Position numbers and translations under genes: made by a program
Shown: piece by piece, positions 16,727 to 18,761 of the stretch
Numbering within the stretch: position 1 is the first letter of the stretch
Layout: each line of letters opens with the position of its first letter
Notes under the pieces: generated by a model
The model's database searches: none
Told to the model about the DNA's origin: nothing
Seen by the model: only the letters and a program-made list of their open reading frames with translations
IMG/VR virus record: IMGVR_UViG_3300037861_000063
Location: 1 to 20,398 of that record
DNA from: a virus
Reading direction: 5' to 3' (one strand)
DNA: 20,398 bases

Positions 16727-16885
16727 TTGAAGTATAACAAAGAGCAAAAGTATATTTTAAAACTTACAGGAGGTCAATCATTTAGAGGTGGATTTCCAAA
16801 AAACACACCTACATTTGTAATAAAAGATGGTTTTAAAATAATAGAAAGTAAAATGAACAATTTAATAAATAATAAAATGAAGTAG
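16727..16885 (+). CDS. Possible 52-aa small protein, TTG start
   Basis: After the SSB-like gene a TTG at 16727 opens LKYNKEQKYILKLTGGQSFRGG... to TAG at 16883-16885. Residues look protein-like (strand, then GGQSFRGGFPKN), and the ORF is positioned in the operon order, but there is no ATG near the 5' end and no family. It may instead be the tail of a decayed gene. Confidence 0.35.
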   Translation: MKYNKEQKYILKLTGGQSFRGGFPKNTPTFVIKDGFKIIESKMNNLINNKMK

Positions 16886-17933: not shown

Positions 17934-17941
17934 TATATTTG
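17934..17941 (+). promoter_or_regulatory. -7 element (TATATTTG) of the replication-gene leader
   Basis: TATATTTG fits TAnnTTTG exactly and sits 7 bp before the first hairpin, so the transcript should start close to 17948. The -33 region (ACTTTT about 20 bp upstream) lacks a clear TTG, so strength or regulation may depend on an activator. Confidence 0.55.
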
Positions 17942-17957
17942 AAATCAGATACTATCT

Positions 17958-17996
17958 ATGGTGGATTTAGTATCATATAAGATTTATAATTGTTAA
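17958..17996 (+). CDS. Candidate 12-codon leader peptide (MVDLVSYKIYNC)
   Basis: Within the leader, ATG at 17958 opens MVDLVSYKIYNC and TAA ends it at 17994-17996, touching the first bases of the terminator stem (17995). The start codon lies inside the ATGGTGG loop that can pair with CCACCAT in the terminator hairpin. A translating ribosome would open hairpin 1 and reach the terminator stem, the arrangement used in translation-coupled attenuation. Translation itself is unproven; such short ORFs are common by chance. Confidence 0.35.
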   Translation: MVDLVSYKIYNC

Positions 17997-18043
17997 CCTT
18001 AATAGGAGTAGAGCCACCATCTCGAAACTATTAAGGTTTTTTT
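17995..18043 (+). terminator. Intrinsic terminator in the replication-gene leader
   Basis: AACCTTAATAG (17995-18005) pairs perfectly with CTATTAAGGTT (18028-18038), 11 bp, and is followed by T18037-18043. It ends 13 bp before the ATG at 18057, so transcripts from the 17934 promoter and the upstream operon must pass it to express the gene. Confidence 0.82.
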
Positions 18044-18056
18044 ATTTTATAAAATT

Positions 18057-18761
18057 ATGGCAAAAGAACTTCCTTATTTTAAATTTGAACCTGCACAATG
18101 GGAAAGTGGAAACATTCAAATTTGTTCTCACCAAGAAAAAGGTGTATTTTTAGATTTATGCTCTTTATATTGGTTAAGACTTGGAGATTTACCATATAAA
18201 TTAGCTATTCAAAAAGTATGCGGTGGCAATGCGGTCGAATTAGATTCGCTTTACGCAGAAAAAATATTTGATATAATAGATGATAGTATTTTTATAAGTT
18301 TTCTTTCAGAACAGTTAGAAGAGTTTGAAGATGTAAGTAAAAAAAACAGTAAAAACGCAAAAGAAGGATGGGAAAAGCGTCGTAAACAAAGAGATAAAAG
18401 CGAGCGCAATGCGACCGCATTAAATTCGCAATGCGAAAGTGATGCCATAAGAGAAGATAACATAATAGAAGATAAGATAAATAACAACCTGTTGGTTGAT
18501 TGGGTGGCACTTTTAAAATTCTTTAATGATGTAACAGGAAGAAACTTTAAAGTTGTAACCGTGAAAGCTAAAAAACAAATAAAAGACAGATTAAAAGAGG
18601 GATATGTAAAAGCTGATATTATAAATGCTATTAATAATTGCTTCTTAGATAAATATCATCAAGAAAATCCTCACTTCTTAACTCTTGAATTTATAAGCCG
18701 AAGTGATAAAATGGAGAAGTACGCAACTGATGCTTTAAAAACTAAAACAACAAAAAAATAA
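18057..18761 (+). CDS. Replication initiator-like protein with conserved phage C-terminal domain
   Basis: A 234-residue protein in two parts. Residues 1-90 (YFKFEPAQWESGNIQICSHQEKGVFLDLCSLYWLR...) match the N-terminal winged-helix-like domain of phage replication proteins of the DUF1376/DUF4373 type. A charged linker (SKKNSKNAKEGWEKRRKQRD) follows. Residues about 150-228 (LLKFFNDVTGRNF..., INNCFLDKYH, PHFLTLEFISRSDKMEKY) match the phage conserved C-terminal domain found with DnaD-like initiators. It probably recruits the host helicase or loads it at the phage origin. It is preceded by a terminator-bearing leader (17948-18043), so its level seems to be controlled. Confidence 0.82.
   Translation: MAKELPYFKFEPAQWESGNIQICSHQEKGVFLDLCSLYWLRLGDLPYKLAIQKVCGGNAVELDSLYAEKIFDIIDDSIFISFLSEQLEEFEDVSKKNSKNAKEGWEKRRKQRDKSERNATALNSQCESDAIREDNIIEDKINNNLLVDWVALLKFFNDVTGRNFKVVTVKAKKQIKDRLKEGYVKADIINAINNCFLDKYHQENPHFLTLEFISRSDKMEKYATDALKTKTTKK

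Follow-up and report, generated by a model that had tools for sequence, protein, structure and literature searches.

A covarying leader with kissing hairpins, a candidate transcription attenuator, before replication and early genes of Bacteroidota phages

Leaders of replication genes in plasmids and phages

In plasmid copy-control leaders such as those of ColE1 (RNAI/RNAII), pT181 and IncI-alpha, kissing loops are situated upstream of the replication gene and an antisense RNA transcribed from the opposite strand is employed, with attenuation as the mode of control in the pT181 type. In phage HK022, the early transcripts start with the put RNA, which is made of two hairpins and works as an antiterminator without a U tract of its own. 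As for phage P4 immunity, the sections of PMC4825925 devoted to it describe a leader-encoded CI RNA that pairs with leader sequences and thereby halts transcription before the replication genes. The same source presents IsrK of Gifsy-1 as a case in which a single promoter gives rise to a short terminated RNA and, by readthrough, to a longer mRNA (PMC4825925).

The leader considered here occupies positions 17934 to 18056 of a viral DNA of 20,398 nucleotides (IMG/VR record IMGVR_UViG_3300037861_000063), this whole analysed stretch being referred to as the window. It has a flavour similar to that of plasmid copy control, but no opposite-strand promoter box was seen near it in a scan for the consensus, and blastn returned no plasmid relatives. 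The put RNA shares the two-hairpin design, whereas the present leader ends in an intrinsic terminator. Regarding IsrK, the passages on this RNA in PMC4825925 do not describe a 5' hairpin that kisses the terminator, and the host differs. The likeness is closer with the P4 CI RNA (and P1 c4), as outlined in PMC4825925: in each case the untranslated leader of phage replication genes holds internal complementary segments, which are indeed found within the present leader, and a short RNA would be the product. As in P4, transcription would end before the replication genes, termination having the status of a proposal in this leader. However, the CI RNA is portrayed there as a separately processed antisense RNA acting on seqA and seqC, while the partners here are the loop of a 5' hairpin and the loop of an intrinsic terminator. 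By analogy, phage P4 immunity is the nearest working analogue.

The flavo-1 motif of Rfam had been suggested for comparison by an earlier reading of the DNA made without database searches (the sequence-only reading), but it shares only its host group with the leader, and no family of Rfam 15 is matched at the gathering score, the best weak match being TEG147 with 21.7 bits against a cut-off of 56.1. As regards a riboswitch, no class-wide conserved aptamer sequence was seen: the GAGUA/GAAA internal loop is present in the subfamily of the window, and other members share the architecture but not the sequence. Finally, a literature search on kissing-loop terminator leaders in phages, Bacteroidota phages included, yielded nothing on point.

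Architecture of the leader

The box, hairpins, open reading frame, U tract and gene start described in the sequence-only reading were all recovered in their places. The features of the leader, all on the + strand, are the following.

17934..17941, +, promoter box TATATTTG, the -7 box of the Bacteroidota primary sigma factor, of the TAnnTTTG type
17948..17974, +, P1, the 5'-terminal hairpin, with the stem GATACTA/TAGTATC (17948-17954/17968-17974)
17958..17964, +, kissing segment 1, ATGGTGG, in the P1 loop (GTGGTGG in most relatives)
17958..17996, +, open reading frame of 12 codons, judged fortuitous
17975..17994, +, linker, A/U-rich, about 20 nt, of unconserved sequence
17995..18038, +, P2, the terminator hairpin, with the outer stem AACCTTAATAG/CTATTAAGGTT (17995-18005/18028-18038)
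18006-18010 / 18024-18027, +, P2 internal loop GAGUA/GAAA, conserved within the subfamily of the window
18011-18013/18021-18023, +, small inner stem of P2, GAG/CTC
18014..18020, +, kissing segment 2, CCACCAT, in the P2 apical loop, pairing with 17958-17964 in 15 of 15 aligned relatives
18037..18043, +, U tract of the terminator
18057..18761, +, replication initiation gene, with a DUF1376-like N-terminus and a Phg_2220_C C-terminus

In the alignments, members of the window's subfamily hardly differ in the P2 internal loop, G[GAGUA]/[GAAA]C, which, taken against the AGUA/GAA consensus, presumably is a bulged-G (loop E) motif. The replication gene starts with an ATG at 18057, 14 nt past the leader terminator; the gene (18057..18761) matches PHROG replication/primosomal families as well as PF09524 (Phg_2220_C), while the DUF1376 match of its product stays below the Pfam cut-off. 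When folded, the 123-nt leader performs only moderately better than its shuffles (z -2.19; 6 of 200 shuffles as good). In Flavobacterium, the TAnnTTTG box has been placed at -12 to -5 (PMC9723704), so that +1 is expected near 17946, two bases 5' of P1. Since P1 begins 2-7 nt past such a box in 22 of 31 scanned elements of the wider class presented below, the same placing puts P1 near +1 in these elements as well.

Two parts of the sequence-only reading are not supported. The first is a leader peptide, whose initiation at the ATG of loop 1 was thought to compete with the kissing contact: most relatives have GTG as the start codon, with frames anywhere between 5 and 37 codons long, and the idea is further disfavoured by the other loops found in most members of the wider class. 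The second is a plasmid-like antisense control, for which the nearest opposite-strand TAnnTTTG boxes of the window lie at 16752 and 19090, with none between them on the minus strand in a scan for the consensus only.

Covariation among close relatives

A relative of the leader, with the loops GTGGTGG/CCACCAC instead of ATGGTGG/CCACCAT, was found by blastn in the Olleya phage Harreka_1. A scan of IMG/VR with a pattern of the terminator core gave 15 contigs, all of which possess P1 and in which A or G in loop 1 is always matched by T or C in loop 2, A-U to G-C double changes keeping the loop-loop helix in these close relatives. In a second scan, only the flanks of P2 were fixed (GGAGTAGAG-N7-CTCGAAAC) and complementarity was not demanded; the two further real members that came out, with complementary but wholly different loops (L040, GTTACGG/CCGTAAC; L042, ATTCCGG/CCGGAAT), therefore constitute an independent test of the loop pairing. 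Eight matches of the P2 pattern in genome contigs were judged to be due to chance, P1 and the kissing partner being absent.

Over the 15 aligned sequences, 99.5% of the cells are paired and double changes occur in 16 of 26 pairs, i.e. in 5 of the 6 counted pairs of P1, in 7 of 10 pairs of the outer P2 stem, and in 4 of the 7 kissing pairs, which answers positively the check for compensatory changes in ATGGTGG/CCACCAT that the sequence-only reading had put forward. None of 500 shuffles equalled the alignment on any measure, and in an alignment of P2 only, 9 of 10 outer-stem pairs show double changes. On comparative grounds, this evidence is decisive for the reality of the predicted structure: P1, P2 and the kissing helix, together with the positions of the promoter box, the U tract and the start codon, are established by comparison. 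Besides, covariation shows that the kissing contact matters, be it for stronger or weaker termination, for protection of the RNA or as a binding site. The intramolecular loop-loop contact, the terminator, the promoter-proximal leader and the replication gene behind it, as first proposed, are thus supported, and the earlier observation is confirmed as real and larger than first described.

A wider class in Bacteroidota phages

The wider class was explored with a scanner built to detect complementarity between the loop of a 5' hairpin and the apical loop of a terminator further downstream. This scanner was tuned on the first matches, it counts a U-rich tail among its criteria, and it allows a spacing of 32-85 nt between the kissing segments. 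In 340 kb of phage loci it reported several dozen elements, with 0 expected from shuffles at a score of at least 24.7. Control DNA amounting to 541 kb, drawn from bacterial contigs (mostly of Bacteroidota) and from the Staphylococcus phage phi 11, gave four matches at an equal cut-off, one of them a duplicate and none with a promoter box beside P1. Four scanner matches of doubtful appearance were discarded (L041:13998, L043:3106, L057:46983 and L057:25142). Model R1, which covers one subfamily, gave only weak matches in a thin sample of 395 Bacteroidota genomes (E 0.001-0.01, mostly 30-38 nt); these are read as ordinary short terminators and were not inspected singly.

The association with replication genes was assessed on 32 loci picked solely because they encode relatives of the replication proteins of the class. 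In 23 of these loci, an element lies at most 1.5 kb ahead of the replication gene, with 0.14 expected from shuffles, it being understood that several of the 32 are near-duplicates and that the other counts include related sequences too. At least one element, that of L023, escaped the scanner and was recognised by eye, whereas none was seen in L029 (which has a short flank) and L039, either by the scanner or on reading the upstream stretch. Among six flavobacterial phage genomes, five contain an element (morran9-1, phi10:1, Harreka_1, FCL-2 and, by eye, Nekkels_1), directly before the replication initiator gene or operon in the first four; upstream of the replication gene of Arctus_1, neither the scanner nor reading revealed one. 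The top-scoring element of the scans belongs to the Bacteroides phage B40-8 (L114:28403-28510), with the kissing segments CCGCCAA/TTGGCGG directly before a gene annotated pRha, and the class therefore extends beyond flavobacteria.

More than 20 loop pairs occur in the class, including GTGAGAAG, GCTCATCAC, GGTCAG, GGTCTCAC, GTACGAC, AGTTGCGTT, TGTCTAC and GTAGAAG. The kissing segments of scanned elements are 39-52 nt apart in the main cluster, and the linker comprises 13-32 nt in the 33 members measured. The first six positions after P2 are T-rich across the class, which is partly built in by the scan criterion but not in the pattern-selected family; the U tract is weak in L032, L034 and L060. 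Of 36 scanned elements, 33 have the ATG of an open reading frame of at least 35 codons within 0-50 nt behind the terminator, a distance that mostly leaves no room for a separate promoter. The genes so preceded include replication initiators with differing N-terminal halves; inspection of the sequences by eye further suggests a helicase, homing endonucleases and a Bro-N-like gene.

A few singular cases may be mentioned. In L003, L027 and L028, the partners of the loop pair GTGAGAAG x CTTCTCAC sit on the opposite hairpins from those in L023 and L077, and the neighbouring loop bases have changed places with them. In the Cellulophaga phage Nekkels_1 (L058:48396-48610), the P1 stem appears short by eye and the terminator bears two apical hairpins, with an apparent double contact in which TTCCAAT pairs with the P1 loop ATTGGAA and GTTAGAC with GTCTAAC of the linker. 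In L066, a TATATTTG box ahead of the match at 2501 is followed by two complementary segments of 11 nt, GGCTTAAGCAA/TTGCTTAAGCC, within a larger structure outside the design of the scanner.

Proposed mode of action and alternatives

The leader gives the impression of a hitherto undescribed RNA, either a switch or a small RNA, before early genes, and we lean, with moderate confidence, towards a cis-acting, promoter-proximal transcription attenuator heading the phage replication module. In such a scheme, the transcript would begin at about 17946 and P1 would fold at its extreme 5' end, followed by the unstructured linker and by P2, the hairpin of the terminator; pairing of the two hairpin loops over 7 bp would then staple the start of the RNA to the terminator. 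The majority of transcripts would end at 18037-18043 as a compact RNA of about 95-98 nt, while readthrough would provide the mRNA of the replication gene, the balance possibly being shifted by some input, either an RNA-binding protein of phage or host or a second RNA that contacts a loop. Actual termination and partial readthrough are inferred. A hairpin followed by a U tract does lie between promoter and gene, as in an intrinsic-terminator attenuator. In a simple rod model in which P1, the kissing helix and P2 are stacked end to end (2.8 A per pair, 6.5 A per linker nucleotide), 29 of 33 elements have a linker of sufficient length for kissing with a closed P2, so that kissing is geometrically compatible with a closed terminator. 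An antiterminator helix using the linker was rejected, none standing out above shuffled arms: pairing of the P2 5' arm before the 3' arm exists reaches 0.45, compared with 0.48 for shuffled arms. With kissing and terminator closure not in competition and no classical antiterminator apparent, the element is taken as a stapled terminator, and the RNA by itself shows no switching device. In favour of attenuation we count the covariation, the complementary new loops, the frequency of elements at the protein-homology loci, the close ATG, P1 near +1, the clustered spacing and the linker length; against it, the absence of a visible switching device, the varied downstream genes, the weak U tracts of some members and the lack of a conserved input among our findings.

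It is less probable, but deserving of attention, that the leader yields a stable small RNA acting in trans, with its own promoter, a sealed 5' end and its own terminator, in which the kissing fold would be protective, the linker or loops would act on other RNAs or a protein, and the downstream gene would be expressed by leakage. The discrete unit of about 85-100 nt from promoter to terminator, with P1 near +1, fits such an RNA, kissing together with a closed terminator would make it compact, and a dual sRNA/mRNA transcript has a precedent in IsrK as PMC4825925 presents it. Nevertheless, an ATG almost always follows closely, and with an unconserved linker and loops that change freely while matching each other, no constant target sequence is visible.

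A more doubtful idea is a self-sensing feedback, in which released RNA copies would pair by their loops with nascent leaders of the same kind and so measure their own amount, in a manner reminiscent of phage P4 immunity and plasmid copy control. The leader does hold its own complementary partners, and contigs with two elements (L006, L024, L027, L043 and L020) carry different loop pairs. We entertain, at the same low level of belief, a private loop-loop code for each locus of the class, by which a released copy would recognise no nascent transcripts but those of its own kind and would feed back on their termination; if true, this would be a self-addressed RNA control of phage replication genes without protein or antisense gene. 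However, both loops of a finished copy would be occupied in cis, and drift, too, would make the loops of two loci differ.

It is improbable that the element forms part of a replication origin, its transcript or the R-loop thereof priming or opening the DNA at the head of the replication module. In this sense, morran9-1, phi10:1, Harreka_1 and FCL-2 each have one credible element before the initiator gene or operon, and the element is common to initiators with different N-terminal halves; yet some contigs have two elements, before genes that by eye are helicase-like or homing-endonuclease-like, and an origin would not need a close start codon. Lastly, the complementary 7-mers could, as reverse-complement segments, be an inverted DNA operator for a repressor with incidental hairpins, a reading that is barely credible given that both stems covary independently of the loops and that the segments sit in both hairpin loops, with P1 near the predicted start and a U tract behind.

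While the kind of control, leader attenuation, is known, the RNA class is new: a strongly covarying structured RNA, absent from Rfam, stands before replication or early genes of many Bacteroidota phages. Because the loop sequence is free while complementarity is kept, break-and-restore mutants would directly test the effect of kissing on an intrinsic terminator. If functional, the diverse loop pairs would also offer ready-made parts for transcription control in Bacteroidota.

Observations on neighbouring genes

In L009 (7708-8328) and L037, replication proteins with a C-terminal half of the window type and another N-terminal half stand behind a like leader. In Arctus_1 and phi19:1, the replication gene has HNH genes next to it. 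Furthermore, at L002:2747, L003:1776, L005:1264, L024:2745, L027:2244 and L113:658, as well as in L012 and L044 (minus strand), a second small conserved hairpin, CGGT(A)N..CTTAAAACCG or, with a compensatory change, AGGT..ACCT, ends 7-8 nt before an ATG. The gene that follows encodes a small protein starting with MAK or MAN and precedes the replication gene, and the hairpin is possibly a translational operator of this small protein.
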